Shown here: positions 3,680 through 15,017 of the stretch, one piece after another
How positions within the stretch are numbered: position 1 is the stretch's first letter
Layout of the letters: every line of letters starts with the position of its first letter
DNA from: an uncultured Fretibacterium sp.
Lineage (GTDB): Bacteria; Synergistota; Synergistia; Synergistales; Aminobacteriaceae
Reading direction: 5' to 3'
DNA length: 15,017 nt
Assembly (NCBI GenBank): GCA_937892105.1
Contig: CALAUZ010000139.1
Span: forward strand, 1-15,017
Translations under genes and position numbers: made by a program
Notes under the pieces: generated by a model
What the model was told of the DNA's origin: nothing
What the model saw: the letters and a program-made list of their open reading frames with translations, nothing else
Databases searched by the model: none

Positions 3680-3686
3680 GGGCTTT

Positions 3687-3692
3687 ATTATA
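3687..3692 (-). promoter_or_regulatory. Perfect -10 box 7 nt before the SieB-like start
   Basis: Read on the minus strand, TATAAT is followed by AAAGCCC and then the ATG at 3679-3677. That puts the expected transcription start at the ATG. No Shine-Dalgarno sequence is present, so a leaderless mRNA is likely. The -35 region is weak. Confidence 0.45.
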
Positions 3693-3753
3693 GTGCCAAA
3701 TACACGAATACCGCACAGCTATACGCTTATGGGCTGATTGTTTTGTTTCCACT

Positions 3754-3882
3754 TTATTGATAAAATTTACTCGCAGGCAAGCGTGAGAAGAACCCTCTGG
3801 CCGTCTCAGACGGTAGCGCAATGTGCGTGGAAACCAGTGGCTCAGGGTCTGCCCATTTATCTCTTATCAAGCCAGCTGTCAT
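3754..3882 (-). CDS. Possible coupled 42-residue protein
   Basis: The minus-strand ATG overlaps the stop of the upstream coiled-coil membrane gene as TGATG, with AAGG just before it, a standard coupling arrangement. The frame encodes MTAGLIRDKWADPEPLVS through GFFSRLPASKFYQ and ends in TAA. It has no membrane segment and no family I recognise. The rest of the 200-base gap toward the SieB-like gene shows only a short CCGTC/GACGG hairpin near 3800 and that gene's promoter. Coupling supports it, but its short length leaves doubt. Confidence 0.4.
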   Translation of the reverse strand: MTAGLIRDKWADPEPLVSTHIALPSETARGFFSRLPASKFYQ

Positions 3883-4253: not shown

Positions 4254-4267
4254 TTTCTCGCTCCTTC

Positions 4268-6025
4268 CTAATGTTTATCCGCAAATCTATCATGCTCCAC
4301 CTTTAGTCCGTCATGCACATACCTATACACCGCATAAAGCCCGCCACTGAATACTCGCTCCTTCATACCGTCAGGCAGTGTCTCCCAGAATGAACGCTCT
4401 AACGCTCCTGACAATTTACCAGTACTCTTGATTGTTTCAGTGAATAATTCCGACATTGCACGGAAAATCTCATTACGCTTCTTCAACACGTCTACCGACA
4501 ACCCTTCATTCAGACACCCTTTCAGCTTGGCAACAATCTGGGTATGGAGCGATTTATCGGACTTCAGGACTCGCGAGAACGCCAAAAAAAGCACTAGCTC
4601 TTTCCAAAGCATAAAGTGTTGAGACAGATATTTGCGCTCGGATTTGTCTGGGAATTTCTCGGCTAAGGACGATAAAAATGGGCGTTCGGCTTCATGGCGG
4701 GATTTCGTCATTGCCGGAGTTAGATATTTATTCTCATGGAGTGTGGGACGGCCTATTAGGGCTAGGGCGGTGGCGGTGAGTTCGGCGGGCTTATCGGGCG
4801 GTGTGGGGTGATGGGGTGGCGGTGAAGGTTCGGGAGGCTCTGGGTGCGTGGCTGGTATAGCATGGCCTTCGTAGTCTAATGCACAGACAGGAGCGTCATA
4901 TATATTCAGCACTTTATGAAAGACTAGAAGATAATCTATCGCCAAAACATTATCAGTCGCTACCAGTATATGCTCTTGACAACCAATATTTACACACTTA
5001 CCACCACAATCAAGAACTCCATTACGATATTTACCTTCAAGCCCATGTATTTCAATGTAGTCGCGTCCAGAGTATTTCACCGTTTCAAATACTAATCCAT
5101 AGCTGAGATTTATCTTCACGCCTTTCTTCAGTTTATCCAGTAGGTAGGGAGCGGAAAGATATGGATTAAAGGCTGTTTGCTTTGGGACAATTTTAGCCTT
5201 CTCCGCTTCGTAATAGTGTTTTGCCACCAGCTGCTTATTGATAATTTTTGAATTGTTGCGGATTAGTGGTAAGCAAGTGCAGGTCAATACATCTCTCAAA
5301 CATTTCAGGTAAGTCTTTAAGGCTTCATCTCTCAATCGCTGAAACCTGCGGGCTGGCTGGCCTTCACATCGAATTTGCCTAATACGCTCTTCACGTCCAA
5401 TATAATAAAGTTCATCCCTATCATCAAAACTAGGCCCCAATCCGATTATATACCTTTGTGGCTGTTGTATAGATTGTTTATACGTCTCCACATCAGTATC
5501 AGAAGCATAAGATACTTCCTTACTATATCTATCTTTATCTCTGATATATATCTTTCGCCTTATTTCTCCAAGCACTTCTACATGACTACGATAGCTACCG
5601 AACATCCTTTCGCATTCATCAAGTAACCATTCTCTCTTGAAATGCTCTGTACAAAGTGGATACCCAAACCTATAGAAAAAATTCTGGACTTCAGAAAAAT
5701 AACTTATCAAGTTTTTTACCACTTTATCGCGCTTATCTCCTAAAGATGCCTTAACACCTATAAAAGCCAAGCAAAACTTACCGACTTCCGTTATGTCCAA
5801 CTTCAACGGACGCTTCATATATTCCGCAATAATATTTTCTAATCTATTACATACAGCTCGCGCTTGTTGCTCATATTCCGACATATGGTGTTCAAAGAAA
5901 TTGCCATCTTCAAAATATAACCATGATGCTCCAAACTGCTCATGCTCTTGCCGTTTCCCTTTTCCCAACATATACACCAAGACAACGAACGTTATAACAA
6001 TAATCATTACCCAAAAATCACCCAT
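4268..6025 (-). CDS. Large membrane-anchored protein of unknown function
   Basis: 585 residues. It opens with one membrane anchor (WVMIIVITFVVLVYMLGKGK, about 5-24), and the following Lys/Arg suggest the bulk is cytoplasmic. A largely helical domain runs to about residue 300. A beta-rich section follows (about 300-385, with YIEIHGLEGKYRNG). Then comes a Pro-rich linker (HPEPPEPSPPPHHPTPPDKP) near 395-415, and a helical C-terminal domain of about 165 residues. I see no nucleotide-binding or catalytic motif. A ribosome binding site AAGGAG sits 10 bases upstream of the ATG. Anchor, linker and two soluble domains resemble the layout of membrane-tethered sensors or exclusion proteins; that is inference. 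It is the largest gene in the accessory block and the least explained. Confidence 0.8.
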   Translation of the reverse strand: MGDFWVMIIVITFVVLVYMLGKGKRQEHEQFGASWLYFEDGNFFEHHMSEYEQQARAVCNRLENIIAEYMKRPLKLDITEVGKFCLAFIGVKASLGDKRDKVVKNLISYFSEVQNFFYRFGYPLCTEHFKREWLLDECERMFGSYRSHVEVLGEIRRKIYIRDKDRYSKEVSYASDTDVETYKQSIQQPQRYIIGLGPSFDDRDELYYIGREERIRQIRCEGQPARRFQRLRDEALKTYLKCLRDVLTCTCLPLIRNNSKIINKQLVAKHYYEAEKAKIVPKQTAFNPYLSAPYLLDKLKKGVKINLSYGLVFETVKYSGRDYIEIHGLEGKYRNGVLDCGGKCVNIGCQEHILVATDNVLAIDYLLVFHKVLNIYDAPVCALDYEGHAIPATHPEPPEPSPPPHHPTPPDKPAELTATALALIGRPTLHENKYLTPAMTKSRHEAERPFLSSLAEKFPDKSERKYLSQHFMLWKELVLFLAFSRVLKSDKSLHTQIVAKLKGCLNEGLSVDVLKKRNEIFRAMSELFTETIKSTGKLSGALERSFWETLPDGMKERVFSGGLYAVYRYVHDGLKVEHDRFADKH

Positions 6026-6094
6026 TATGCTTGCTCTCCTTCTAGCATGTCGGGAAAATATTTGCGTCTGTCTGATTTTGAAGGTTATCGCCTT

Positions 6095-6286
6095 TCACTT
6101 CATAAACATCTGCAACAACGTAAGCACTATCTGCACACTGCCTACCAATATCGCCGTCCAGATTGCTGCCTTTGTCAATCCCTGCGAGGCTTCGTGCTTT
6201 CGGCTTTCGCTCCTCTCGGCTTCACGCTGTTCCAGTTTCTCCACTCGCTTTCTTATCTCTCGAATATACATTGACATATTTGACAT
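6095..6286 (-). CDS. Small XhlA-like coiled-coil plus single TM protein
   Basis: About 63 residues: a short coiled coil (IREIRKRVEKLEQREAERS), a polar hinge, and one C-terminal membrane segment (AAIWTAILVGSVQIVLTLLQMF). This is the layout of the hemolysin XhlA-like family and related phage membrane-anchored coiled coils. Start choice is uncertain. ATG at 6313 adds nine residues but has no ribosome binding site; ATG at 6286 has AAGGG four bases upstream and TAGGAG farther away, and I chose it. It lies 69 bases upstream of the 585-residue gene in the same direction. Confidence 0.6.
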   Translation of the reverse strand: MSNMSMYIREIRKRVEKLEQREAERSESRKHEASQGLTKAAIWTAILVGSVQIVLTLLQMFMK

Positions 6287-6366
6287 CTTGCCCTTATCTT
6301 TTTCTCCTAGCATTCAGGTTATTCGGTTATATACCGCGAGTTCATTCTACCAAAGAACATTTCCTA

Positions 6367-7176
6367 TCATGCTTGGCTTTTACCGTGCGTGAACTTTACT
6401 GTCTCATATGCAGGCGGACGAGGCGCAACTGCTTCAGGACAAAGATATTTGAAGTAGTCTTCTAGCGTGTCATATATCGCTGACAATACAGATGGCAATC
6501 CCTGACAGCATAAAAGCTCAGGCGACTTCTTCAAGTACGGCAACATTTCGGGCAACTTACCTTCACGCATAAATCTCTCCATTCCAGTATCATGCTCTGG
6601 AAATAAGTCCCATGCCGTTGTCGCTGCCTTCCAGAAACATGCTCCCAGCCTTACTGTTCGTGAAAAATCGTTGTCCATTAAGTGCTTGCCCATAAAATAA
6701 CGCAGGTACGGTACAAACTCCATTCCATACTCGTAATTTGCCCGCTTGTGCTGTTCAGTGTCTTCGTTCTGGAAGCCGAACATGGCCGCGTCATACACCT
6801 TCATGCAATAGTCATGGAGCTTCTTGTCCCGCCCTAATATCGCATCGCATGAGCAGACTACACATGTTTCCTTGAACACGTAATAGTTATTCTCCAATGC
6901 GTAATATCTGCGTTCATCTCCGTTTTTATAGTCCGAGAAAAAACTCTCAAACGCTCCATTCGTCAATAATTCTCGCCTAGCTATCATGTGTTGGGACGTG
7001 TGCCGGAGTTCGGGAAACTGGTAGCTGCCTATCATGTCAAGTATCATGTTTATCAAGATTGGCATGTAGTTTTCTGGCTCTTTCAGGTATTTGAACACTG
7101 GCAGTATTTCGGATGGTTCACGCTCTTGGCTTCCATCTATGTCTTTGCCCTTTATGTGTATTCCGTACGCTCGCAT
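6367..7176 (-). CDS. Soluble protein of unknown function
   Basis: 269 residues, with AAAGGAG 7 bases before the ATG. It has no signal peptide or membrane segment, many aromatic and acidic residues, and a Cys cluster (ETCVVCSCDAILG) near the middle. Predicted helical segments include FVPYLRYFMGKHLM and LPSVLSAIYDTLEDYFKYL. No catalytic signature is recognised. It lies between two coiled-coil membrane genes in the leftward block, so it may be the cytoplasmic component of a membrane-associated system, but nothing in the sequence shows that directly. Confidence 0.75.
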   Translation of the reverse strand: MRAYGIHIKGKDIDGSQEREPSEILPVFKYLKEPENYMPILINMILDMIGSYQFPELRHTSQHMIARRELLTNGAFESFFSDYKNGDERRYYALENNYYVFKETCVVCSCDAILGRDKKLHDYCMKVYDAAMFGFQNEDTEQHKRANYEYGMEFVPYLRYFMGKHLMDNDFSRTVRLGACFWKAATTAWDLFPEHDTGMERFMREGKLPEMLPYLKKSPELLCCQGLPSVLSAIYDTLEDYFKYLCPEAVAPRPPAYETVKFTHGKSQA

Positions 7177-7260
7177 GGCTGCTCTCCTTTCAGTCTGCGT
7201 TGTCTTTAGGCGGTTACTTGTATTGCATTCTTGGTAATGACTACATTATCGGTATCATGT

Positions 7261-7713
7261 TCATTTTCTGGCTGGGCTAATGTTACTGGCTGTTTCGGAC
7301 ATAATCTCCCTTACTATCTCTTGCACTTTTTCACGGGTTAATGCTGGCTCTTGTTGCCTCTCTTTGCGCTCTCTCCTGAACATAGGCACAAAGGCTACTA
7401 TTAGCGCAAGAATTGCAAAGCCCCAGTAGAATGTATGTTGGAGCATTTCTATCTTCACCGAGTTCACATTAACCTGTGTCGATAATGCTTGTATTTCCGT
7501 ATGAAGACTAGCCTGTACACCTTGTATTTCTGAATGAAGGCTCGTTTGTACACCCTGTATTTCTGAATGAAGGCTAGACTGTACACTGTCTATCTTGGAA
7601 TTTAGCTTATTACGCAGGCGTTCATTATCAAGCCTAATCTGGGCTAGGAATGTCTCCATCTTAGAATTAAACAGTTCTATCGTGATGTATTGCTGGTTAT
7701 CTTGGCTCGTCAT
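7261..7713 (-). CDS. Membrane-anchored coiled coil with 11-residue repeats
   Basis: 150 residues. A charged N-terminal segment (ELFNSKMETFLAQIRLDNER) leads into 11-residue repeats (LHSEIQGVQTS, LHSEIQGVQAS, LHTEIQALSTQ), a hendecad periodicity typical of long right-handed coiled coils. One membrane segment follows (FYWGFAILALIVAFVPMF, about 94-111), then a basic RRERKERQQ and a short amphipathic C-terminal helix (REKVQEIVREIMSE). The layout resembles Bdr-like or XhlA-like phage proteins. A truncated copy of the N-terminal third lies at 8392-8538. Function unknown; oligomeric membrane attachment is inferred. Confidence 0.75.
   Translation of the reverse strand: MTSQDNQQYITIELFNSKMETFLAQIRLDNERLRNKLNSKIDSVQSSLHSEIQGVQTSLHSEIQGVQASLHTEIQALSTQVNVNSVKIEMLQHTFYWGFAILALIVAFVPMFRRERKERQQEPALTREKVQEIVREIMSETASNISPARK
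7501..7599. repeat. Three tandem 33-base repeats in coiled-coil gene
   Basis: Units at 7501-7533, 7534-7566 and 7567-7599 each begin ATGAAG on the plus strand. The first two match closely (..TGTACACC.TGTATTTCTGA) and the third has diverged. A decayed fourth unit precedes them. They encode 11-residue hendecads in frame, so gain or loss of a unit would change coiled-coil length without a frameshift. Confidence 0.8.
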
Positions 7714-7771
7714 TATGTTTTTTCACCGCCTTCTTTATGCCGTTGCCAGAACTGCGTTCTTGATGATTGCG
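7612..7771. repeat. Direct repeat copy 1 flanking higBA
   Basis: About 160 bases align without large gaps, at roughly 80% identity by eye, to 8436-8596. Shared blocks include ATGTCTCCATCTT, TGATGTATTGC, CTCGTCATTATGTTTTT and TTGATGATTGC. The repeat spans the antitoxin tail, the spacer, and the first 40 or so codons of the coiled-coil gene. Confidence 0.75.
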
Positions 7772-7800
7772 ACAAGCCCTCTACGGTATTCATACATCAT
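7735..7800 (-). pseudogene. Remnant of antitoxin C-terminal tail
   Basis: Starting directly after the HigA stop, the minus strand reads MMYEYRRGLVAIIKNAVLATA and stops. Its last 11 residues (AIIKNAVLATA) match, codon for codon and in the same position relative to the next gene, the tail of the antitoxin at 8561-8857 (AIIKDAVPATT). It is thus the end of a second antitoxin copy whose body has been replaced by higBA. Confidence 0.6.
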
Positions 7801-8076
7801 TTAAGCGTATTCAGTAACTCTTGGGAATGTAGCTATTTCTTTGCGGGTATTTATATCGCATTGAATGTTATAGAAAAGCATGGGAGAAATCCCGAACACT
7901 GCGCCTAACTTGGCTGATATTTCCGGCGTGATTTCTGTCTCATCAGCAAGAATACCGCGAATGTCTGCAAGTGGTATATCGGCCATATTGGATACAGTCA
8001 GCGCATCTAGACACAGAGGAAGCATGAAATCTTCATAGAGAAATTCGCTGATAGGCGGTATAGGTATCCTATTCAT
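7801..8076 (-). CDS. higA: HigA-type antitoxin (XRE family)
   Basis: 91 residues with the arrangement of HigA antitoxins: an N-terminal PPISEFLYEDFMLPL..., then a helix-turn-helix region (LADIRGILADETEITPEISAKLGAVFGISPMLFYNIQCD) that matches the family pattern of a late-placed XRE domain followed by an ISP..W/F.N.Q-like motif. HigA neutralises HigB by direct binding and represses the operon. It follows the toxin by 13 bases, with TAGGAG 10 bases before the ATG. Toxin-first order is the HigBA norm. Confidence 0.85.
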   Translation of the reverse strand: MNRIPIPPISEFLYEDFMLPLCLDALTVSNMADIPLADIRGILADETEITPEISAKLGAVFGISPMLFYNIQCDINTRKEIATFPRVTEYA

Positions 8077-8089
8077 CTAATACACACTC

Positions 8090-8374
8090 CTAATGATAAT
8101 CAGTAATTTCAACGTCATCAAAACCATCCTCACAAACAGTAAAACATACTCTAAACTGTTCATTAATCCTGATTGAGTACTGTCCTTCCCTATCGCCGTG
8201 CAACTGTTCAAGCCTATTGGCTGGTGGTACTCGTAAATCATTTAGGCATTGAGCGTTATCTATATAAATGAGCTTGCGCAGTGCCGTACCTTGAATGTAA
8301 TGAGGTAGTTTGCGTGAGAATTGCCCATTAAAAATTTTTTCAGTTTCCTTGTCTGAAAACCTTAGAATAGCCAT
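8090..8374 (-). CDS. higB: HigB-type mRNA interferase toxin (RelE superfamily)
   Basis: 94 residues. Family features visible are SDKETEKIFNG at the N-terminus, ALRKLIYIDNAQCLNDLRVPPANRLEQLHGDREGQYSIRINEQFRVCF in the core (the conserved L..L..PP.N.LE.L.GDR.GQ.SIRIN.Q.R..F pattern), and DVEITDYH at the C-terminus. This is the plasmid-maintenance/HigB toxin family, which cleaves mRNA at the ribosome. It is full length. There is no clear ribosome binding site; a TATTAT box 6 bases upstream suggests an almost leaderless message. The promoter overlaps an inverted repeat that is the likely HigA operator. Confidence 0.9.
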   Translation of the reverse strand: MAILRFSDKETEKIFNGQFSRKLPHYIQGTALRKLIYIDNAQCLNDLRVPPANRLEQLHGDREGQYSIRINEQFRVCFTVCEDGFDDVEITDYH

Positions 8375-8375
8375 A

Positions 8376-8403
8376 GCTCAATAATAATTACTCAAACTTG
8401 AGC
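8376..8403. promoter_or_regulatory. Inverted-repeat operator at the higB start
   Basis: GCTCAA at 8376-8381 pairs with TTGAGC at 8398-8403, and a nested palindrome CTCAA-AC-TTGAG occupies 8391-8402. On the minus strand, TATTAT lies between them, 6 bases before the higB ATG. Palindromes over a toxin-antitoxin promoter are typical of autorepression by the antitoxin or complex. Confidence 0.5.
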
Positions 8404-8538
8404 CGAAACAGCCTGAATTTCCGAACGAAGCTCATTGCGTAAGTGTTCATTGTCCAGCTTGATTTGCGTTATAAATGTCTCCATCTTGAAATTGAATAAT
8501 TCAACAGTGATGTATTGCGTGTTATCTTGTCTCGTCAT
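8392..8538 (-). pseudogene. Truncated duplicate of the coiled-coil membrane gene
   Basis: 48 codons beginning MTRQDNTQYITVELFNFK, clearly paralogous to the start of the intact gene (MTSQDNQQYITIELFNSK). It continues through LDNEHLRNELRSEIQAVSAQV and stops. Compared with the intact copy, the repeat array has collapsed to one unit and everything after the equivalent of QALSTQV, including the membrane segment, is missing. The stop lies within the higB operator, so loss of the 3' end coincides with the higBA boundary. It could still be translated as a soluble coiled-coil fragment able to bind the intact protein. Confidence 0.7.
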
Positions 8539-8596
8539 TATGTTTTTCTCACTGCCTTCCTTATGTCGTTGCCGGAACTGCGTCCTTGATGATTGC
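8436..8596. repeat. Direct repeat copy 2 flanking higBA
   Basis: This is the partner of 7612-7771 in the same orientation. It covers the antitoxin tail, the 22-base spacer and the opening codons of the truncated coiled-coil copy. higBA lies wholly between the two copies. Confidence 0.75.
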
Positions 8597-8857
8597 TGCT
8601 GCCTTATTGAGCAGTGCTAGAGTTTGTTCTAGGTTGTAGCCGGATTGCGCTGTATCCTCTGCATGGGAGATGAGTGTGTCCCAGTATGTTGCGCCCTGCC
8701 GTCTGCGGGTTGCTTCGTCATACCATGCCTTTATACATGAAATCTCTTCTGCGTCTCCATCGGCTATAACGGTATCAAGATATAAGTCTGCAAACTCAGG
8801 GTCTTCTATGAAATGCTGTATTACTGCCTCGTCATGAGTTATTGTATCGGTAATCAT
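8561..8857 (-). CDS. Putative antitoxin of the RelE/ParE-type pair
   Basis: 98 residues. It overlaps the toxin stop as ATGA, the usual arrangement for this toxin class. The N-terminal half (EAVIQHFIEDPEFADLYLDTVIADGDAEEI) fits the opening of HigA/antidote proteins that follow Gp49-like toxins (..L.DPE.A..YL..AL..GD...). The C-terminal half (ATYWDTLISHAEDTAQ..LEQTLALLNKAAAIIKDAV) does not show the helix-turn-helix expected there. Either this is a variant antitoxin, or the C-terminus was replaced through the repeated segment that begins in its last codons. The assignment rests mainly on position and the N-terminal match. Confidence 0.6.
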   Translation of the reverse strand: MITDTITHDEAVIQHFIEDPEFADLYLDTVIADGDAEEISCIKAWYDEATRRRQGATYWDTLISHAEDTAQSGYNLEQTLALLNKAAAIIKDAVPATT

Positions 8858-9186
8858 GCGCGGTGTTCCTCCTTGTATTTTCTCAGGTACTCAATCGCCC
8901 TATTTATATCTTTCTGCTGTGTTCGCTTGTCTCCGGCGCAAAGAAGCATTACAACTGTTTTCCCGATTATGGAGTAATAGACACGGTAGCCCAGACCGTA
9001 ATCAATAATGAGTTCCCAGACACCTTCACGGCATGGTTTGTGTTCTCCAAAATGGCCGTTTTCTATGCGCTTCACCACTCTGTCGATTGCAACTGCACCC
9101 TTTTTGTCTTTTAGAGCCTTCAGCCAATCTTCGAATATGTCTCGACCGCTCTCCCTGTAATGGACTACTCTATACTGTTCTGGCAT
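8854..9186 (-). CDS. RelE/ParE-family toxin (phage Gp49-like, PF05973)
   Basis: 110 residues from ATG 9186, the usual family length. A GTG at 9252 would add 22 atypical residues. Family features are YRESGRDIFEDWLKALKDKKG, IDRVVKRIENGHFGEHKP, GVWELIIDYGLGYRVYYS and VVMLLCAGDKRTQQKDINRA. The last matches the conserved LL.GGDKxTQ.KDI signature, with Ala replacing one Gly. Such toxins are ribosome-dependent mRNA interferases held in check by the adjacent antitoxin. No strong ribosome binding site precedes the chosen start. The approximately 100 bases between it and the membrane gene hold no other ORF. Confidence 0.85.
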   Translation of the reverse strand: MPEQYRVVHYRESGRDIFEDWLKALKDKKGAVAIDRVVKRIENGHFGEHKPCREGVWELIIDYGLGYRVYYSIIGKTVVMLLCAGDKRTQQKDINRAIEYLRKYKEEHRA

Positions 9187-9291
9187 GACTATTCTGTTGT
9201 CGTGCCGTTGGCTTTCATAGCTCGTCCGGCGTTCGTGAGGGCTGTCGTACACTGCGCTGTCGATAATAGTAACCTGTTTCTTGGTGCTTCC

Positions 9292-9981
9292 TTAAAACAT
9301 TAGTCGCGTATCTTCGCGTATTATAACTAAGCCATAACAATGTATAGGCACAGCAAAAAGTCCTACAAATACAAAAGTACATATCACTACAACGTGAATA
9401 TACTCTACCCGCTCAAAGAAAACCGAGAACACCAACAACGAAATGATAGATGCTAGTTCAACAAAGGCAGTAATAATTATGCAGATAAAACCTGCTTCAT
9501 CCTTATCACGCCTCAATGTATCTACCAGCACTCTAAAAAAAGGCAATGTACACATTGCAGAACATAAAGCCAATGTAGGCAAAATGTCCAATGATAACAA
9601 TACCCCATATTCTATCCCCACAGCTATCGTTATATAGCCCCATATCATGGCGACAACCCAATGCACCAGAGCTACCAAGAATGATGATATTTCCACATCA
9701 TCTATTCCTGAAAACAACTTCGCAGAATATGTCAGAAGGCCAATAACGTACGGGCCAAAAACATACGAACACACAGCACATAAAGCAAACTGCCACCCAT
9801 TAGAAAACAAAAGCCATAGAGCAGCTATTATGGGTACAGGAACATTCATGACAAAGACTATAGGCCCCAAATAGTTCAGGTACGTCATGCATCTTTCCAT
9901 GACATCTAGCCTCTCGTAACTATCTATTGACTTCTTCAAATCACTCTTCAGTTTTTCAAATTCTTCATCTATCTCACTCAT
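9292..9981 (-). CDS. Six-segment integral membrane protein linked to cI
   Basis: 229 residues. A charged, helical N-terminus of about 30 residues (EIDEEFEKLKSDLKKSID) is followed by about six hydrophobic segments. Examples are IVFVMNVPVPIIAALWLLF, FALCAVCSYVFGPYVIGLL, LVALVHWVVAMIWGYITIAV and VVVICTFVFVGLFAVPI. Polar loops separate them, and the end is EDTRLMF. It has AAAGGAG 6 bases before the ATG and starts 20 bases after the repressor stop, so it should be co-transcribed from the lysogenic promoter. No transporter family is recognised. A constitutively expressed membrane protein right behind cI is a common position for superinfection exclusion, but that is inference from context. Confidence 0.75.
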   Translation of the reverse strand: MSEIDEEFEKLKSDLKKSIDSYERLDVMERCMTYLNYLGPIVFVMNVPVPIIAALWLLFSNGWQFALCAVCSYVFGPYVIGLLTYSAKLFSGIDDVEISSFLVALVHWVVAMIWGYITIAVGIEYGVLLSLDILPTLALCSAMCTLPFFRVLVDTLRRDKDEAGFICIIITAFVELASIISLLVFSVFFERVEYIHVVVICTFVFVGLFAVPIHCYGLVIIREDTRLMF

Positions 9982-10001
9982 AATGCTCTCCTTTCATCAT
10001 G

Positions 10002-10418
10002 CTAACCTGCTGCAAGTTTAGCTTTAATCACGCTCGCAGATAATTCTTTAAACCATGCTTGATTGGAAGGTGTATCTGGTACTTCTATGTAGCAATCCCC
10101 TTGTTTAAAGACAAGTTTACCAGGTGTCTCTTTGTGCAATGTCTCCTTTGAAGGCTCTTCAAGCAATGCTATATCAGGCGTAAACGAACTACTCCCAACT
10201 CCAGTCTCGGAGATGTTTGGGTTATCCGTCTCACCTATAAGATAGGCCACTGACGTGTTTAGCAACTTTGCCAGTGCTATTTTTGTCCTATCATCAGGCT
10301 CGCTCGTATCCGATTCCCAACGCGAGACTGTTACCCTTGTCGTTCCTAATACCTCTGCTACTTTCTCGCCTGACAAACCTAACTCCTTACGTCTCCTTTT
10401 CGCTCTTTCTCCGTACAT
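10002..10418 (-). CDS. CI-type phage repressor (XRE family, no S24 domain)
   Basis: 138 residues from ATG 10418, chosen because AAAAGGAG lies about 10 bases upstream; a longer frame to 10469 has none. The helix-turn-helix is at residues 5-60 (RRRKELGLSGEKVAEVLG, then GTTRVTVSRWESDTSEPDD). A linker follows, and then a short C-terminal region (KLVFKQGDCYIEVPDT, ELSASVIKAKLAAG). There is no S24/LexA peptidase domain, so induction by RecA-stimulated self-cleavage is not expected. An antirepressor, such as the BRO protein downstream, is the more likely trigger. It is divergently transcribed from the Cro-like gene, with operator palindromes between them. It should repress both the early rightward genes and its own synthesis. 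Confidence 0.85.
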   Translation of the reverse strand: MYGERAKRRRKELGLSGEKVAEVLGTTRVTVSRWESDTSEPDDRTKIALAKLLNTSVAYLIGETDNPNISETGVGSSSFTPDIALLEEPSKETLHKETPGKLVFKQGDCYIEVPDTPSNQAWFKELSASVIKAKLAAG

Positions 10419-10441
10419 TCTTACATAACTCCTTTTTTTAT

Positions 10442-10469
10442 ATGATACGCGAAATGTTACAAAAAACAA
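10442..10469 (-). promoter_or_regulatory. Repressor (PRM-like) promoter
   Basis: On the minus strand, TTGTTT (10469-10464), a 16-base spacer and TATCAT (10447-10442) form a reasonable sigma-70-type promoter leading to the repressor. The -35 lies inside the palindrome at 10465-10484, so an operator-bound protein would control it directly. Confidence 0.5.
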
Positions 10470-10484
10470 CGAACGTTATTTGTT
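10465..10484. promoter_or_regulatory. Operator palindrome 1 of the lysogeny switch
   Basis: AACAACGAACGTTATTTGTT has two-fold symmetry: AACAA, two free bases, AACGTT, two free bases, TTGTT. It covers the -35 of the repressor promoter. Size and position fit a CI/Cro half-site pair. Confidence 0.55.
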
Positions 10485-10537
10485 GCATAATCTCATGATA
10501 CGTACATTATTTGTTATTAAATAAGCCTTATTACGTA

Positions 10538-10552
10538 TTACATAAAATGTAA
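10538..10552. promoter_or_regulatory. Operator palindrome 2 of the lysogeny switch
   Basis: TTACAT-AAA-ATGTAA is a perfect inverted repeat lying 36-50 bases before the Cro-like ATG. It sits just upstream of a TATAAA (10558-10563) that may be the -10 of the rightward promoter. It differs from palindrome 1, so two proteins or two site classes may be involved. No good -35 could be assigned. Confidence 0.5.
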
Positions 10553-10587
10553 CATTGTATAAAATATCGGCATGAAAGGAGGAAGAC

Positions 10588-10770
10588 ATGAGCTTCAGAG
10601 AGGCAAGAAAAAAGCGTAATCTCACTCAGAAGCAAGTTGCACAAAGACTAGGGACAAGTCGTGTTACAGTCGCAAGATGGGAATGCGGAGTTAATAACCC
10701 AAAATTAAACACTATAAGGGAACTCGCAAAGCTATATCAATGCACGGCTGACGAACTGATTAATCCCTAA
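10588..10770 (+). CDS. Cro-like XRE regulator
   Basis: 60 residues, essentially a bare helix-turn-helix: FREARKKRNLTQKQVAQRLG, GTSRVTVARWECGVNNP, then LNTIRELAKLYQCTADELI. AAAGGAGG lies upstream of the ATG at the right distance. It is the first gene of the rightward block and divergent from the repressor. Its recognition segment (GTSRVTVARWE) is nearly the same as that of the repressor (GTTRVTVSRWE), so both probably read the same operators and compete as CI and Cro do. Confidence 0.85.
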   Translation: MSFREARKKRNLTQKQVAQRLGTSRVTVARWECGVNNPKLNTIRELAKLYQCTADELINP

Positions 10771-10962
10771 GCAACAACAAACTGTATATTGACAATTCAC
10801 TCTCCATGACGGGAAGGAAGCAATCCGGCCAGTGTCTTGAAGGCTAAAAGTGATACATACAAGGCTCAACAAACCCTCGTAACTACCTGCCCTTCACCTG
10901 CCCGCTGAGGATGAAGGTGTATAAAAAGGCGGGATTTGCTCTTACTCCATTACTGAAAGAAG
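10771..10962 (+). other. Leader between Cro-like gene and first small ORF
   Basis: 192 bases without a supported gene. Two short ATG frames (13 and 23 codons) have no ribosome binding site. A TTGACA at about 10787 has no -10 at the right distance. The right half carries stem-loop element D. Confidence 0.4.
10901..10945 (+). terminator. Terminator-like stem-loop, element D
   Basis: CCCGC at 10901-10905 pairs with GCGGG at 10929-10933 across a 23-base loop, followed by ATTTGCTCTTACTCC. It lies directly before the GAAAGAAGG ribosome binding site of the next small gene. The stem is shorter than in elements A-C, but the tail (TCTTACTCCAT) is shared with them. Confidence 0.4.
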
Positions 10963-11136
10963 GTGATTGCTCTGTCGGATGAAGATAAAATAACTGTCCT
11001 TAACTCTATACGTGATTTCGTGGTACGCGTTCTGGCGGACACAGATAACAAAAAGCCGGAAGAAATACATATACTCCCGGCAATTACGAAAATTCTGCTT
11101 GATGAAAATTACTTGCTGGAAGTGTCAAAGAAATAA
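10963..11136 (+). CDS. Small early protein, paralogue of 13337-13591
   Basis: 57 residues or fewer. The sequence (LSDEDKITVLNSIRDFVVRV, then EEIHILPAITKILLDENYLL) matches the C-terminal half of the product at 13337-13591 (LSEMELANIKHALVDFVLRV, EIEILPAVLDTLLDN). The conserved skeleton is LS..., DFV.RV, EI.ILPA and LLD. It is helical and acidic, with no known domain. Start: the GTG at 10963 overlaps the GAAGG ribosome binding site and is unlikely to be used. The in-frame CTG at 10972 is exactly 8 bases after GAAGG and is probably the real start. The outer limit is given here. Confidence 0.6.
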   Translation: MIALSDEDKITVLNSIRDFVVRVLADTDNKKPEEIHILPAITKILLDENYLLEVSKK

Positions 11137-11179
11137 TCCGTCAGCTAATTCACAAGACGAACATTAATCAGTACTAAAC

Positions 11180-11240
11180 CCGCTCCTTTGCTGTGGTTTG
11201 GCTTTCAACTTAATTATAGCAAGGGCGGTCTTTCTCTCTC
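11180..11240 (+). terminator. Repeated intergenic stem-loop, element A
   Basis: CCGCTCCTTTGCT (11180-11192) pairs with AGCAAGGGCGG (11218-11228) through about 11 pairs with a 2-base bulge. A pyrimidine tract TCTTTCTCTCTC follows, and then the ribosome binding site GAAAGAAGG. Arms, the TGTGGTT after the left arm and the ATTATAGCA before the right arm recur in element B. It looks like an intrinsic terminator or attenuator placed at the gene entrance. The conserved loop also contains TATAGC, so a promoter role is possible. Confidence 0.6.
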
Positions 11241-11248
11241 GAAAGAAG

Positions 11249-11431
11249 GTGAGAAAAATAGCTATTATCCATATTGAACTCAAAAAGCATGTAGGCAAAA
11301 ACTTGTCCGCTATCGTGGCCGCTGACTTTGACCCCGATATTGACGACAAAAATGAAATCTGCAACATCGTCAATAACTTGTTCAACAACGCTGGCTACCT
11401 GCCACAGGATAACGAAACTCAATCGCGCTAG
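11249..11431 (+). CDS. Small early protein of unknown function
   Basis: 60 residues or fewer: IAIIHIELKKHVGKNLSAIV, an acidic DFDPDIDDKNE segment, then NIVNNLFNNAGYLPQ. It has no membrane segment and no family recognised. The first GTG (11249) is part of the GAAGGTG ribosome binding site. The in-frame ATA at 11258 lies exactly 8 bases after GAAGG, the same spacing as the near-cognate codons of two other genes in this block, and no ATG exists in the frame. It is preceded by element A and followed 20 bases later by the BRO antirepressor. Confidence 0.6.
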   Translation: MRKIAIIHIELKKHVGKNLSAIVAADFDPDIDDKNEICNIVNNLFNNAGYLPQDNETQSR

Positions 11432-11451
11432 AAAGGAACGTGATTTATATC

Positions 11452-12222
11452 ATGAACGACATTCAACTTTTCAACAACGGAGACTTCACTGCCCGCGCCA
11501 TTCAAGATGAAGATGACGGGCAAATCTGGTTCGTTGCTAGGGACGTTGCAAAGGCTCTCGATTACTCAATGGCCGGAAGCATTCAGTCTTTATTCGAGAA
11601 AGTGCCGGAAATTTGGAAGGGTAGCAAACGGATTGCTACCGTCACCAGGGGAGAACAGAATATGCTTTGCATTACGGAGCAAGGGCTGTACTTCTTTCTC
11701 GGACGCTCGGACAAGGAGAAGGCTCTGCCATATCAGATGTGGATTGCTGGTGAAGTTGTACCATCCATTCGCAAGACAGGAAGTTACAGCCTGCACGATG
11801 ACGAGAAACTCACTAAGACTATCATGTACGCGGCCAGAATGATTTTTGACGCAGCTGGCATTAAGGATAACCAAATGGCTCTGGCTCTCGATAAGGTTGC
11901 TAAGCACTACATCGGCAAAAGTCTGTTGGCTATGTCTGGCATTGAGCTTGTCGCTCCGAATAAGTGCCAGCTTCTTACTCCAACTGAAATCGGTAAACAC
12001 TTCGGCGTGTCGGGCAGGAAGATTAATACTCTGCTGTGTGAGGAAGCGTATCAGAAACGTGTCGGCAAAAACTATGAACCGCTTGAAATTGGTGAGCCGT
12101 TCGCCGTTATGCTGGACACTGGTAAGGCGCATTCTGATGGAACACCGATACGCCAGCTCAAATGGGAAAGCACTATCATTGATGAGATTTCGGACTTGTT
12201 CCCACTGATGGAGCGCAAATAA
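11452..12222 (+). CDS. BRO-family phage antirepressor
   Basis: 256 residues. The N-terminal BRO-N domain, about residues 1-115, is clear: IWFVARDVAKALDYS, then LCITEQGLYFFLGRSDKEKA and YQMWIAGEVVPSIRKTGSYSL. The C-terminal half (about 130-256) is a separate domain with TPTEIGKHFGVSGRKINTLL, a winged-helix-like stretch, and FAVMLDTGK..DGTPIRQLKW. BRO/Ant proteins bind DNA or inactivate CI-type repressors, driving induction. Because the local repressor lacks a self-cleavage domain, this is its best candidate antagonist. ATG 11452 is preceded by AAAGGA at a long 14-base spacing; GTG 11440 is an alternative. A stand-alone relative of the C-terminal domain is at 14259-14699. Confidence 0.9.
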   Translation: MNDIQLFNNGDFTARAIQDEDDGQIWFVARDVAKALDYSMAGSIQSLFEKVPEIWKGSKRIATVTRGEQNMLCITEQGLYFFLGRSDKEKALPYQMWIAGEVVPSIRKTGSYSLHDDEKLTKTIMYAARMIFDAAGIKDNQMALALDKVAKHYIGKSLLAMSGIELVAPNKCQLLTPTEIGKHFGVSGRKINTLLCEEAYQKRVGKNYEPLEIGEPFAVMLDTGKAHSDGTPIRQLKWESTIIDEISDLFPLMERK

Positions 12223-12223
12223 C

Positions 12224-12430
12224 ATGGTTATGTTCGTGGGACAAGAAAATATGACACCCGTTCAGCTCGCTTTGGAGACTGCCAGATTCCATCTCTCCAT
12301 TCTGCACGGATGCCATCTCTCCTCTTCGGATACTCACACATTCTTACGTGTTATCGACAACAACGAGGCTGTTGAACGCATTGATGACGCTCTCCGCTCT
12401 TTAGGGCTTATGGATACACGCGCGAATTAG
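12224..12430 (+). CDS. Small protein of unknown function after the antirepressor
   Basis: 68 residues, starting one base after the BRO stop (TAACATG), so probably translationally coupled; a GGAG in the end of the BRO gene lies 10 bases upstream. The sequence is helical and hydrophilic (TPVQLALETARFHLSILHGC, then NNEAVERIDDALRSLGLMD). It resembles the helix-loop-helix layout of the other small early proteins, but no clear paralogy is visible. Its last 23 bases overlap the end of the convergent KTSC gene. Confidence 0.6.
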   Translation: MVMFVGQENMTPVQLALETARFHLSILHGCHLSSSDTHTFLRVIDNNEAVERIDDALRSLGLMDTRAN

Positions 12431-12623
12431 CATATACACTCTCAATTTCGGACATAAAATACGCGTAAGGCATATCCGCTCTCAGTAAAGACGCGTACAC
12501 TTCGGCTGATACTCTCGTAAACTGGTACACAGTGTGATTGCTCAACTCCACTTCTAGTACCTGAATTTCTGCGTCATAACCCACTGAGATAAGCTCGCCG
12601 GAGTTTATTGGCGTTCGTTTCAT
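12408..12623 (-). CDS. KTSC-domain protein on the opposite strand
   Basis: 71 residues: INSGELISVGYDAEIQVLEV, then HTVYQFTRVSAEVYASLLRA and YFMSEIESVY. This fits the KTSC pattern (S..I..IGYD...L.I.F..G..Y.Y..VP..VY..L..A.S.G.YF...I...Y). KTSC domains occur alone in phages or fused to RNA-processing and other enzymes; their biochemical role is unsettled. The ribosome binding site GGGAGG lies 7 bases before the ATG. It is the only minus-strand gene in the rightward block, converging on the preceding gene with a 23-base overlap. Its ribosome binding site forms the left arm of stem-loop B. Confidence 0.85.
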   Translation of the reverse strand: MKRTPINSGELISVGYDAEIQVLEVELSNHTVYQFTRVSAEVYASLLRADMPYAYFMSEIESVYANSRVYP

Positions 12624-12630
12624 TTTATCA

Positions 12631-12682
12631 CCTCCCTTGCTGTGGTTGTTCTCGCAAATCGATTATAGCAGGGAGGCTTTTT
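12631..12682. terminator. Repeated intergenic stem-loop, element B
   Basis: CCTCCCTTGCT (12631-12641) pairs with AGCAGGGAGG (12667-12676), ten pairs with one bulge, followed by CTTTTT. It shares TGTGGTT and ATTATAGCA with element A and TCGCA.AA with element C. The left arm read on the minus strand is the KTSC ribosome binding site, so any antisense transcript folds that site into the stem. The right side leads into ACTCCATGAAAGAAGG before the next plus-strand gene. Confidence 0.6.
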
Positions 12683-12697
12683 ACTCCATGAAAGAAG

Positions 12698-12934
12698 GTG
12701 AAAATCATTCTCTATAACATGTCGCAATCTCAGGTTGAAAGCGTCAAGACTGCTATTGAGCGCATTAAGGACGCTAAAGAGGCTCTGTGTACTGCTGTCG
12801 GTATGCCTAACGCTGAGCCGGATGATAAAGCATGGGATGAGTTTTTCAGAAAGCCCGCAGCTGATAGGGTTACTCACATTATCTCCCTGCTTATTGACGC
12901 GGAGAATTTCGCTCTACCACTCACTGCTGACTAA
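12698..12934 (+). CDS. Small early protein, family with 12956-13195
   Basis: Up to 78 residues: MSQSQVESVKTAIERIKDAK, then PDDKAWDEFFRKPAADRV and DAENFALPLTAD. It is a close paralogue of the next gene. Shared positions include VK.AIE.IK.AKEA, DK..D.F..RP and L.D.E.F.LPL. It is predicted to be all helical and acidic, with no known domain. Start: GTG 12698 overlaps the GAAGG ribosome binding site. The in-frame ATT 12707 is exactly 8 bases after it. ATG 12719 has no ribosome binding site at usable distance. The outer limit is given. Confidence 0.65.
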   Translation: MKIILYNMSQSQVESVKTAIERIKDAKEALCTAVGMPNAEPDDKAWDEFFRKPAADRVTHIISLLIDAENFALPLTAD

Positions 12935-12955
12935 TTCATGAAAGGAGGTGTTACC

Positions 12956-13195
12956 GTGCAGACTGCCTCAGAAACCAAATTATCACAGAAACAAATTGAA
13001 AACGTCAAAAAGGCCATTGAGCATATCAAGAACGCTAAAGAGGCTATCACTGACGCTCTCGATATTCCGTTCGCTGCTCCGGGAGATAAAGAATATGATG
13101 ACTTCTGGAAAAGGCCGGGCATTCATACCTTGTTCCGCTTATCCTTCATGCTCGATGACACGGAAAAATTCTCCCTCCCGCTTATAGCTCCTTAA
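12956..13195 (+). CDS. Small early protein, paralogue of the preceding gene
   Basis: 79 residues from GTG 12956, seven bases after AAAGGAGG; ATG 12938 lies upstream of that ribosome binding site and is not credible. The sequence LSQKQIENVKKAIEHIKNAK, then PGDKEYDDFWKRPGIHTL and DTEKFSLPLIAP aligns end to end with the 12698 product, so the pair arose by tandem duplication with considerable divergence. Function unknown. Confidence 0.7.
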   Translation: MQTASETKLSQKQIENVKKAIEHIKNAKEAITDALDIPFAAPGDKEYDDFWKRPGIHTLFRLSFMLDDTEKFSLPLIAP

Positions 13196-13206
13196 CTTCT
13201 GCTTTT

Positions 13207-13272
13207 CGACACCGCTGTCGATTGGCACTTACTCAACTTCCCGCTAATTTTGGCGCAATGTTGTCTGCAACA
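13207..13272 (+). promoter_or_regulatory. Two short hairpins before the next small gene
   Basis: CGACA-CCGC-TGTCG (13207-13220) and TGTTG-TCTG-CAACA (13259-13272) are perfect 5-base stems with 4-base loops. The second ends four bases before AAAGGAGG. They do not match elements A-E in sequence but sit in the same kind of position. Confidence 0.35.
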
Positions 13273-13290
13273 CTGAAAGGAGGTGATTAC

Positions 13291-13344
13291 GTGCCACAGT
13301 TTTTTGGGGAACAAGCTCTTGATGGACAGAGGCAAAATGATTAG
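13291..13344 (+). CDS. Possible 17-codon leader peptide
   Basis: GTG 13291 is 7 bases after AAAGGAGG, the best-placed start in this gap, but it opens a frame of only 17 codons (VPQFFGEQALDGQRQND). Its TAG overlaps the region of ATG 13337 of the next gene. This could be a leader whose translation feeds ribosomes to the next start. The alternative is that the main frame starts at GTG 13283 inside the ribosome binding site. Confidence 0.4.
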   Translation: MPQFFGEQALDGQRQND

Positions 13345-13591
13345 AAGGTTCAATCCTACCAGACGGCTCTATAGGCTCTCGAAATTCTCTCACTCCAAGC
13401 ACGGCAAAAGCATATGCCCTGTGAAATGTGATAACCCGCACAGGCTATCTGAGATGGAATTGGCAAATATCAAACATGCTCTCGTTGACTTCGTTCTGCG
13501 TGTCTCGGTAGAAGATGAAAGAGAAAGATACACATCGGAAATCGAGATACTGCCCGCTGTCCTAGATACCCTACTCGATAACTTCACTTAA
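13337..13591 (+). CDS. Small early protein, basic N-terminus, paralogous C-terminus
   Basis: About 84 residues from ATG 13337. The first 35 are strongly basic (RRFNPTRRLYRLSKFSHSKH) and include CPVKCDNPH, so nucleic-acid contact is conceivable. The rest (LSEMELANIKHALVDFVLRV, EIEILPAVLDTLLDN) is paralogous to the 10963-11136 product. It thus looks like that small domain with an added basic arm. AGAGG sits four bases before the ATG, and a leader frame with a better ribosome binding site ends across it. Starts at 13322 (ATG) or 13283 (GTG) are possible. Confidence 0.55.
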   Translation: MIRRFNPTRRLYRLSKFSHSKHGKSICPVKCDNPHRLSEMELANIKHALVDFVLRVSVEDERERYTSEIEILPAVLDTLLDNFT

Positions 13592-13610
13592 CCTGAAAGG
13601 AGGTGTCTGC

Positions 13611-13844
13611 TTGGAGGATAAAAACTCAAACCCTATTGATGACCTGCAACAACGCTTCATTGACTTGCGCGAACAACTCGCTACCGTAAGGGACGCTCTC
13701 TTCGCCATTTACTCGGACGGAGACCACATTCTCTCTGGAAAATCTTACACTACCACTAAAGACTTCATTACCGTTTCCGGCATTATGAGAGATTGCATTG
13801 ACTTGCTAAAGGCTCTTCACTTAAACGAGTACCCGCCTATTTAA
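13611..13844 (+). CDS. Small early protein, TTG start
   Basis: 77 residues from TTG 13611, seven bases after AAAGGAGG; no ATG lies near. The sequence DLQQRFIDLREQLATVRDAL, then KSYTTTKDFITVSGIMRDCI and LLKALHLNEYPPI suggests two helical hairpins. No known domain. It follows the previous gene by 19 bases and is followed by stem-loop E. Confidence 0.65.
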   Translation: MEDKNSNPIDDLQQRFIDLREQLATVRDALFAIYSDGDHILSGKSYTTTKDFITVSGIMRDCIDLLKALHLNEYPPI

Positions 13845-13854
13845 CTTTTCACTC

Positions 13855-13913
13855 GCTCCCTGCTTGCTTTTACACACAGCCTTCTTGGCGGGCAGGGACG
13901 CTTTCATTATTCT
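13855..13913 (+). terminator. Terminator-like stem-loop, element E
   Basis: GCTCCCTGC (13855-13863) pairs with GCAGGGACGC (13892-13901), seven continuous pairs plus two after a bulge, followed by TTTCATTATTCTT. It then runs straight into AAAGGAGG. It is analogous in form and position to A-D but with less sequence similarity. Confidence 0.5.
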
Positions 13914-13930
13914 TAAAGGAGGTGTTATTC

Positions 13931-14137
13931 ATGGATGTTACTGTCGTTACTGAAAGCTCGAACTTCGTCAATTGCAGAAAATTGTTCTACAACGCTTGCG
14001 GCTCCCTCGCTGACGTGTACAAGGAAATCTGCAAGGTTTTGGGTGAGGGTTCTTACAACAGCGAATGGGAATTGAGGGTTCTTCGCGAATACCGCGAGAC
14101 TGTCGGCAATATGCTCAAAGTTACGTGGGAACGCTAA
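13931..14137 (+). CDS. Small early protein of unknown function
   Basis: 68 residues from ATG 13931, eight bases after GGAGG. The sequence NCRKLFYNACGSLADVYKEI, then EWELRVLREYRETVGNMLKV is helical and carries several Cys and Tyr residues. It has no known domain. Stem-loop E precedes it and stem-loop C follows. Confidence 0.65.
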   Translation: MDVTVVTESSNFVNCRKLFYNACGSLADVYKEICKVLGEGSYNSEWELRVLREYRETVGNMLKVTWER

Positions 14138-14177
14138 ACAAAAAAACTCCGCTACTGACTACCCGTATTACTTTTCA

Positions 14178-14238
14178 CCGCCTTTGCTATTAGGGTTCGC
14201 ACAAACTTGTTTTAGCAGGGCGGGTTTTCTCTCACTCC
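14178..14238 (+). terminator. Repeated intergenic stem-loop, element C
   Basis: CCGCCTTTGCT (14178-14188) pairs with AGCAGGGCGGG (14214-14224), about ten pairs with one bulge, followed by TTTTCTCTCACTCC and then ATGAAAGGAAGG. Arms are nearly those of element A, and the loop shares TCGCA.AA with B. It sits directly before the stand-alone BRO C-terminal gene, as A sits one gene upstream of the full BRO gene. Confidence 0.6.
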
Positions 14239-14258
14239 ATGAAAGGAAGGTTATATCT

Positions 14259-14699
14259 ATGCTCAACAATCTAAACTCTTTGCGCCCTATCGACTTCCTG
14301 GAAGCTGCTATGTTCATCTTCCTCACTGCTGGCATTAACGGAACACAGCTCGCAAAAGCCCTCGACAACGTTTTCAAGGCTCTCACGGGGTTTAGCACTC
14401 TCAAATACGCAAACATTCAGCCCGTCATAACAGAAACAGCTCTCACTCCGGCGGAAATCGCAAAGGCTATCGGCATGAGCGGCAACAAGAAATCCGCAAA
14501 GACTATCAACTTCATTCTCCAAGACGCTCAGTTTCAGGAATGGTTTAAGGGCAAAAACAATTGGAGACCTACCGAAAAGGGCAAAGAGTTCGCCGTTCTA
14601 CTCGATACAGGCAAAAAATACCCTGATGGCTCTCCTATCATGCAACTCAAATGGAGACCCGCCATCGTCCTTATCGTTCAAGACTTAATACCGTTTTAG
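14259..14699 (+). CDS. Stand-alone BRO C-terminal domain protein
   Basis: 146 residues from ATG 14259, eight bases after AAAGGAAGG. It aligns with the C-terminal half of the BRO antirepressor in this window. AAMFIFLTAGINGTQLAKAL corresponds to AARMIFDAAGIKDNQMALAL. Further matches are LTPAEIAKAIGMSG, EKGKEFAVLLDTGK, DGSPIMQLKW and QDLIPF. The BRO-N domain is absent, and since the gene has its own ribosome binding site and start it is a separate gene, not a frameshift. It could act as a competitor or partner of the full antirepressor, or as an independent DNA-binding protein. Divergence from the full-length gene is substantial, so the duplication is old or acquired. Confidence 0.75.
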   Translation: MLNNLNSLRPIDFLEAAMFIFLTAGINGTQLAKALDNVFKALTGFSTLKYANIQPVITETALTPAEIAKAIGMSGNKKSAKTINFILQDAQFQEWFKGKNNWRPTEKGKEFAVLLDTGKKYPDGSPIMQLKWRPAIVLIVQDLIPF

Positions 14700-14712
14700 G
14701 GAGGGATAATTC

Positions 14713-15017
14713 ATGCTCGAAACTTTCAGCCAAATTCAGCTCAAAGCTATTACTTACCCGATTATGTCTGACCTTATCGCCGCCGTTGAAAATTTAAGCT
14801 CCATTAAAGCGGATGAAGATGACGTTGCTAATACCGCCATCAAGTTACTGGATTGGATTGAAGTCCTTGACGCTGCTCACAATTTCGCTCATTCAGTCAT
14901 TCACGGCTTCGTCTCGCAGTTCGGCTACTCCGTCATGGAGGGCTTCACGCCGGAAAACAGCTACTCAGATACGGAAGGAGGCGATTACACATGCTCCCAT
15001 TCTTCAGACGCTTCAAA
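14713..15017 (+). CDS. Small early protein, open at window end
   Basis: From ATG 14713, seven bases after GGGAGGG and 14 bases after the preceding stop. 101 codons are visible without a stop: IQLKAITYPIMSDLIAAVEN, then AIKLLDWIEVLDAAHNFAHS. The first 75 or so residues are helical, like the other small early proteins. The last visible codons run over the ribosome binding site of the next gene, so the true end should be just beyond the window. Function unknown. Confidence 0.6.
   Translation, partial: MLETFSQIQLKAITYPIMSDLIAAVENLSSIKADEDDVANTAIKLLDWIEVLDAAHNFAHSVIHGFVSQFGYSVMEGFTPENSYSDTEGGDYTCSHSSDAS
14991..15017 (+). CDS. Start of the next gene, partial
   Basis: ATG 14991 is preceded by GGAAGGAGG with 9 bases of spacing and begins MLPFFRRFK before the window ends. 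It overlaps the preceding frame. Nothing more can be said of the product. Confidence 0.4.

Follow-up and report, generated by a model that had tools for sequence, protein, structure and literature searches.

A repeated hairpin element in a phage-like region of Synergistaceae, with a putative promoter and Shine-Dalgarno sequence on its opposite strand

What is the role of the hairpins found immediately ahead of several small genes in the early region of a phage-like sequence? The question is raised by a stretch of 15,017 nucleotides from an uncultured Fretibacterium sp. of the Synergistota (assembly GCA_937892105.1, contig CALAUZ010000139.1, positions 1 to 15,017), analysed over its whole length and hereafter called the window, which appears to belong to a phage or prophage of Synergistaceae. 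The first-pass annotation had listed five terminator-like hairpins, starting at 10901, 11180, 12631, 13855 and 14178, and had read them as an attenuation or antitermination network. The reading preferred here, to which about even chances are given, is that the element is a two-strand regulatory cassette, in which a leftward promoter would lie inside a hairpin that hides a Shine-Dalgarno (SD) sequence, the same inverted repeat giving a terminator-like hairpin in rightward RNA.

Folding was evaluated against 200 dinucleotide shuffles, and kinship by Smith-Waterman alignment against 1000 shuffles. On the plus strand, stable hairpins are found at 11180..11228 (z -4.15, with two U bulges), 12631..12676 (z -4.92, followed by CTTTTTAC), 13855..13901 (z -4.70) and 14178..14223 (z -3.00), the one at 12631 having the lowest energy in the window when 60-nt stretches are folded every 10 bases on both strands. 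Four of the five listed hairpins are therefore retained; the one at 10901 is not, having z -0.61, with 60 of 200 shuffles folding equally well. Hairpins had been placed within about 25 bases of a ribosome binding site, and distances of 14, 15, 14 and 20 nt to the SD were indeed found for 11180, 12631, 13855 and 14178, respectively. The hairpins at 11180, 12631 and 14178, taken alone, resemble each other to a degree reached, for each pair, by none of 1000 shuffles; 17 consensus pairs are predicted for them, three of which are changed on both sides. The proposal that three of the hairpins, sharing arms and loop words, are diverged copies of one element is thus borne out for this trio, whose kinship is regarded as real on the strength of these alignments. 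The similarity of hairpin 13855 to 11180, 12631 and 14178 is reached by 73, 64 and 44 of 1000 shuffles when the hairpin is taken alone, and by 121, 0 and 2 when flanks are included; with a score of 12 bits against the model described below, it may be a far family member, and is treated as doubtful. For hairpin 10901 alone the corresponding figures are 245, 12 and 574. This site is tied by similarity to the other copies through the leader alone. The leader has a T-rich beginning and carries the SD of the rightward gene; at 12631 it spans 12679..12705 (+), and it is alike at 10936-10972, 11230-11256 and 14226-14255. The leaders of 10901, 11180, 12631 and 14178 form six pairs, for each of which the similarity is reached by 0 of 1000 shuffles, that of the 13855 leader being marginal (2-11 of 1000). 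The rightward genes behind 10901 and 11180 (10963 and 11255, +) have an SD and no nearby ATG, so that a GTG within the SD or a rarer start is required.

A meaning for the words shared by the copies is found on the opposite strand. The word ATTATAGCA is complementary to TGCTATAAT, an extended -10 promoter motif, and CACCTCCC, in which the outer 5' arm of 12631 lies, to the SD of a gene running leftward. This gene, at 12408-12623 (-), encodes 71 amino acids (aa) with a KTSC domain (Pfam PF13619, E 2.7e-15, above the cut-off), and its start is 7 bases from the 12631 stem. Its SD, GGGAGGTG on the minus strand, occupies 12629..12636, and its TGCTATAAT motif lies inside the hairpin at 12662..12670 (-). 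The same motif is present at 11213..11221 (-) inside hairpin 11180, where a promoter scan reports 11242-11213 with TG before the -10; at 14178 the word has decayed to TGCTAAAAC (14209-14217), the extended -10 being kept in the first two copies. No leftward open reading frame (ORF) is present at either 11180 or 14178. The pattern TGNTAWAAT occurs four times in the window, both strands considered: two occurrences are those within hairpins 11180 and 12631, and the third, at 12630, overlaps the spacer between SD and ATG of the KTSC gene. The putative leftward promoter has the extended -10 TGnTAwAAT and no clear -35. Given these opposite-strand motifs and the KTSC gene, the loop words at 12631 are reinterpreted as putative promoter and SD of the divergent gene; the first-pass annotation had rightly seen that the words are shared, and had taken them for an RNA loop, overlooking the other strand. 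The fourth TGNTAWAAT, at 3758 (+), stands ahead of the Rfam DUF3800-VII RNA (3772-3858, 52.3 bits), at a fitting promoter position.

A covariance model (R1) was built from 11180, 12631 and 14178, a check proposed with the original observation, and finds the element in what appear to be prophages of Synergistaceae. Some match at E <= 0.01 was obtained in 13 of 81 Synergistaceae genomes, the convincing places being G040:C5 (6.0e-11), G001:C29, found twice (3.4e-9 and 4.3e-5), and G009:C11 (4.6e-7). Four of the 15 places from this search were used and the other 11 were read, with an assumed offset for L184; five of the latter (L182-L185, L187) have the complement of TGnTAwAAT. An early search at E <= 1 had given 22 places in 11 genomes, three of which were used (two in G001, one in G009); G007:C120 (1e-4) was discarded, being a plain GC hairpin with no -10 motif, and L165 was the only one read among 18 other weaker places. 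A model R2, with 8 pairs and a poor alignment, was not used. Rebuilding the model with the convincing relatives (R3) added, among 65 loci, the viral contig L102 (5.5e-6) and a further copy in G001 (0.0044); L106, L093 and L205 were left out of the reading. The G001 copies lie on the goat-rumen contig JAFSUD010000065.1, whose apparent prophage carries three of them, G001a, G001b and G001c.

In G001b and G009 the element stands at the start of a KTSC gene, as in the window, and this KTSC gene lies behind one that is similar, by eye, to the small gene 12224-12430 of the window. Other leftward ORFs at the element encode 136 aa (G040), 59 aa (L102) and 54 aa (G001a). Six of the nine model-related copies have a leftward ORF of at least 50 aa with its SD in the arm, and TGNTAWAAT is found in all six. 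A search for KTSC genes retrieved eight from 183 Synergistota genomes; apart from those in G001 and G009, only the one in G006 has, by eye, equal geometry, with other arms (GCTTCACC/GGTGAAGC); the geometry is shared by its near twin in G005, where a single change leaves a G-U pair. In total, 11 copies were counted in seven phages or prophages, eight of which head a leftward ORF of at least 50 aa; the copies lacking such an ORF are 11180, 14178 and G001c, TGNTAWAAT being kept in one of the three. For all eight leftward-ORF copies the SD lies in a hairpin arm, six of them having been found by, or used for, a model containing the SD complement. The promoter motif within the hairpin is TGNTAWAAT in six of the eight and TACAAT in G005 and G006. 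In IMG/VR, two strict element patterns gave no match, the pattern TTGCTGTGGTTN{6,16}TTATAGCA gave one contig, L001, set aside as a chance match devoid of the arms, and the KTSC alignment gave 19 pattern matches, none of which was confirmed.

Conservation of pairing was evaluated on an alignment of seven distinct sequences (A5), by using 500 shuffles and controls in which partners are slid. Nine pairs are changed on both sides, against 3.6 in shuffles (nine being reached by 1 of 500) and 0-3 in slid controls; 88.5% of the cells pair, against 44-58% when slid. The first-pass annotation had named, as the sequence test of its idea, whether changes are compensatory and whether relatives conserve the arms; this test was applied, and the idea withstood it. 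As far as these comparisons go, both the family of repeats and its pairing are real beyond the window. Predicted exposure of the SD changes with the origin of the RNA: in six copies its unpaired share is 0.00-0.11 in RNA reading through and 0.31-0.56 in RNA started at the promoter, and 11180 behaves alike (0.20 to 0.63). Exposure in the decayed copies 14178 and G001c is predicted to be equal in both RNAs. By folding, the SD would thus be freed in promoter-started RNA in six of the eight leftward-ORF copies, and not in the other two.

These data suggest how the cassette could work. On the minus strand, an extended -10 promoter and an SD would be set inside an inverted repeat. Leftward RNA started at this internal promoter would contain only the SD half of the stem and be translatable; leftward RNA reading in from further right would contain both halves, and its SD would be hidden. 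On the plus strand, i.e. within the early operon, the same repeat would form a hairpin followed by a T-rich tail; in the window, 14-20 nt separate it from the SD of the gene that comes next. The hairpin has been retained in copies with no leftward gene (11180, 14178, G001c). What can be read directly in the compared sequences is the family of repeats, the motifs for promoter and SD, the ORFs that run leftward, the pairing kept through change and the KTSC synteny; activity of the leftward promoter is suggested by its motif, and hiding of the SD in vivo would follow if the predicted folds form. We hold that both faces matter, the leftward one being better defined than the rightward, which is probably a weak terminator or a pause site.

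Several points weigh against the cassette. The leftward read-through RNA has no known source. The alignment A5 had been fitted to the structure, and the model was built from three of its rows, so that its figures lean towards the model; likewise, the models include the SD and -10 complements, and the copies found are biased towards having both. In G006 and G005 the SD is predicted to be paired in both RNAs (0.01 against 0.05), and their -10, TACAAT, has no TG. Five of the eight KTSC genes from the 183 genomes have, by eye, no such element. The T tail of G009 is poor (ATATTTAA), no rightward gene lies near this copy, and folding is weak, in terms of z, for G040 (-1.32), G001c (-1.65) and L102 (-1.68).

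The same geometry, with an extended -10-like motif in the loop, was found at three weaker model hits, in divergent gene pairs that look like host genes. A later model search gave nine places, four being members of the model and the other five read (L180, L211-L214). Locus L213 (G082) has a hairpin of -17.7 kcal/mol, whose arm includes the SD of a leftward ORF, and TGATAGAAT; the product of this ORF resembles ribosomal protein S20. L212 (G046) has a weak fold (-6.4), the leftward ORF's SD in the arm and TGCTACAAT. The geometry is absent, on reading, from L211, L214 and L180. It is complete in L183 (G042), with a hairpin of -16.8 kcal/mol, TGCTAAAAT and a leftward ORF of 200 aa. G042, G046 and G082, which are outside the count of 11, were picked by a model containing these very motifs. 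They nevertheless suggest that the arrangement may not be restricted to phages: compact divergent gene pairs of this phylum may tend to adopt it, and phages would have multiplied it. As a control, the promoter pattern TGCTAWAAT-N13-25-AAGGGAGGTG was searched in IMG/VR, giving 16 loci, a number similar to that expected by chance on a rough estimate. Twelve of them precede an ORF of at least 50 aa, five (L195, L200, L205, L206, L208) being versions of one site, and TTGACA is found upstream in L198, L201, L203 and L207. Control loci mostly have no strong hairpin on the other strand; the exceptions are L196 (-13.5 kcal/mol) and L209 (-17.3), where the SD complement is paired, and L203 (-10.9), where it is partly so.

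The most durable alternative, although an unlikely one, is that the hairpins are rightward intrinsic terminators or attenuators of the early operon, passed by antitermination or partial read-through, the leftward motifs being incidental or a matter of single genes. Early operons of lambdoid phages do contain intergenic terminators with antitermination. In Tn916, insulating terminators are described together with a processive, probably cis-acting RNA antiterminator, canT (PMC11658703), and the likeness of both systems to the window lies in the hairpins inside an early or transfer operon. A hairpin and T-rich tail precede a rightward SD-like site in nine of the ten copies scored for the tail (G009 being outside the SD-site check), the hairpin is kept in 14178 and G001c despite loss of the leftward promoter and gene, and the doubtful member 13855 occupies a similar type of location. 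Four to six T are found in the 8 bases after the stem of each scored copy, for a total of 50/80 against 23/80 on the other side, the T content of the window being 28%. The tails are interrupted, however, as in TCTTTCTC and GTTTTCTC, and the upper stems have long loops (11 nt at 12631, 18 at 13855) or mismatches (11180 and 14178). A terminator scan requiring loops of 3-8 retrieved none of the five named hairpins. By an E. coli formula, the terminator score is negative in all ten copies (10901 excluded), ranging from -7.8 (G001b) to -62.3 (G009, with a shortened stem); a strong-looking hairpin from another Synergistota genome obtained -5.5 in the same way. Moreover, no rightward promoter was seen between hairpin and SD, which are 14-20 nt apart in the window, and this alternative leaves unexplained that the arm falls on the SD of a leftward ORF in eight of 11 copies and that TGNTAWAAT is conserved.

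The label 'terminator-like' consequently holds for the stable stem of four hairpins out of five, and not for a compact loop with an uninterrupted U tract. The suggested attenuation or antitermination network is not supported, since terminator features are weak and much of the conserved sequence is explained by the promoter and SD of the opposite strand. Nor does comparison with Rfam support a cis-acting RNA like put or nut: the elements give no match at the gathering score, the sole such match in the window being the DUF3800-VII RNA already mentioned. The difference from the lambdoid and Tn916 systems lies in these weak features and in the antiterminator, which was not found in a search limited to Rfam. 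A short terminator-like hairpin (6 pairs, T-rich tail) was also noted at 12596-12613 (+), within the KTSC gene and about 17 bases before the 12631 stem; it may be due to chance, the scan yielding fewer such sites than shuffled sequences.

A quite improbable explanation assigns the hairpin to translation of the rightward gene: CACCUCC, the antisense of the leftward SD, would otherwise pair with the rightward SD, and the 3' arm (GGGAGG) would be a decoy taking it up and freeing the rightward SD. When the 3' arm is barred from pairing, the rightward SD is predicted to pair more with the 5' arm in five of nine copies (w12631, G001a, G001b, G040, L102), each of which has a leftward ORF; the values are 0.00-0.12 before and 0.35-0.87 after. 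The unpaired share of the SD drops in G001b, G040 and L102. This share is little changed or unchanged, however, in w12631 and G001a, the effect is absent in w11180, w13855 and w14178, and in G001c pairing between the 5' arm and the SD is predicted whether the 3' arm is available (0.86) or not (0.88). Support for the decoy from these predictions is mixed.

Equally hard to favour is the possibility that copies with no leftward gene are left over from duplicated leftward cassettes and persist only as homology through which cassettes are exchanged. The rightward genes after the copies look unrelated, and the leftward start sites of 14178 and 11180 have a decayed appearance; pairing is nevertheless kept through change among the window copies also (columns 6-47: UA, UG, GC). 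Least probable of all is a DNA operator, the dyad being bound by a phage repressor over the leftward promoter: the centre of the 12631 dyad is at most 2 bases from the predicted leftward start and several copies per phage are what operators would show, but arm sequences vary between copies while complementarity is kept, the opposite of what a single DNA-binding protein needs.

The cassette may be compared with known leaders. In those of the T4 genes e, soc, 49 and I-TevI, the SD and/or the start codon are described as contained in a helix, and the late promoters of gene e are positioned so that the RNA omits the inhibitory 5' part (PMC3014915). The likeness to gene e and I-TevI consists in an SD hidden in the longer RNA and freed in RNA from an internal promoter, which is here predicted only. 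The T4 case, as that source presents it, has a late promoter and a gene in the same direction, whereas here an extended -10 promoter would lie on the strand opposite to that of the early operon, a second gene, directed rightward, is also preceded by a hairpin formed from the dyad, and up to three copies occur per phage. Repeated inverted repeats before start sites are also known as ESAS in cluster K mycobacteriophages, where they are imperfect, located in the non-structural half of the genome and directly upstream of start sites (PMC3203893); a 2025 follow-up states that their function still requires experimental verification (PMC12699233). ESAS are reported to have a sequence consensus and to be mostly tied to the 13-bp SAS, whereas the present arms covary and include the SD of an oppositely directed gene; the SAS has no match in the window at up to 2 mismatches. 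No description of the present element was found in open-licence literature, searched by titles and starts of abstracts. The finding is better described as a two-strand promoter, SD and hairpin element than as an antitermination network.

The copies lie in a region that runs rightward behind a CI-like gene at 10002-10469 (-), whose product contains HTH_3, and a small helix-turn-helix gene at its head, 10588-10770 (+), apparently Cro-like by position and look. Downstream of copy 11180, the ORF 11440-12222 (+) encodes a Bro-N antirepressor (Pfam PF02498, 4.8e-16; PHROG anti-repressor Ant, 1.2e-31). It has 1275 homologues, and among the 120 listed all four named ones are from Synergistaceae; the four best loci of its alignment are Synergistaceae contigs of ruminants. 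In IMG/VR the single sequence gave no match, and alignment A2 gave 79 and 80 loci, mostly distant. The adjacent small genes 12698-12934 and 12938-13195 (+) look, by eye, like diverged duplicates, and a protein search with the product of the latter gave one cluster, the window's own. The product of 14259-14699 (+) has a C-terminal part that looks, by eye, similar to that of the antirepressor (its C-terminal domain), the Bro-N domain being absent. At the DNA level, 10800-15017 has no match with phage records, and 1-8000 matches one phage record and two plasmids, only inside an AAA-ATPase-like gene (1859-3250). Elsewhere, a HigB-like toxin (PF05015, 4.3e-16) is encoded at 8090-8374 (-), followed by a small gene at 7801-8076 (-) that may be the antitoxin and has no Pfam match, and a Gp49-like protein (PF05973, 3.4e-5) at 8854-9252. 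A strong inverted repeat at 68-130 folds on both strands (z -4.8 and -5.6), in coding-looking DNA near the contig start.

A bolder reading, for which the chances seem slim, takes the palindrome as a strand-selective gate: a brake hairpin for rightward polymerase, allowing leftward translation only from RNA started within it, and a plug-in boundary reused by phages of Synergistaceae. Confidence in it was slightly lowered because the host-like pairs G042, G046 and G082 share the geometry. The element is also a warning that repeats which look 'terminator-like' when a single strand is read may turn out to be promoter and SD for a gene of the opposite strand. If the gate is true, leftward accessory genes could sit inside a rightward early operon with neither silencing nor mis-expression by read-through RNA from either side. 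The element would show how one 60-base sequence can allow accessory genes to run counter to a phage early operon, and it offers a conserved and testable regulatory sequence for phages of a bacterial phylum that has received little study.

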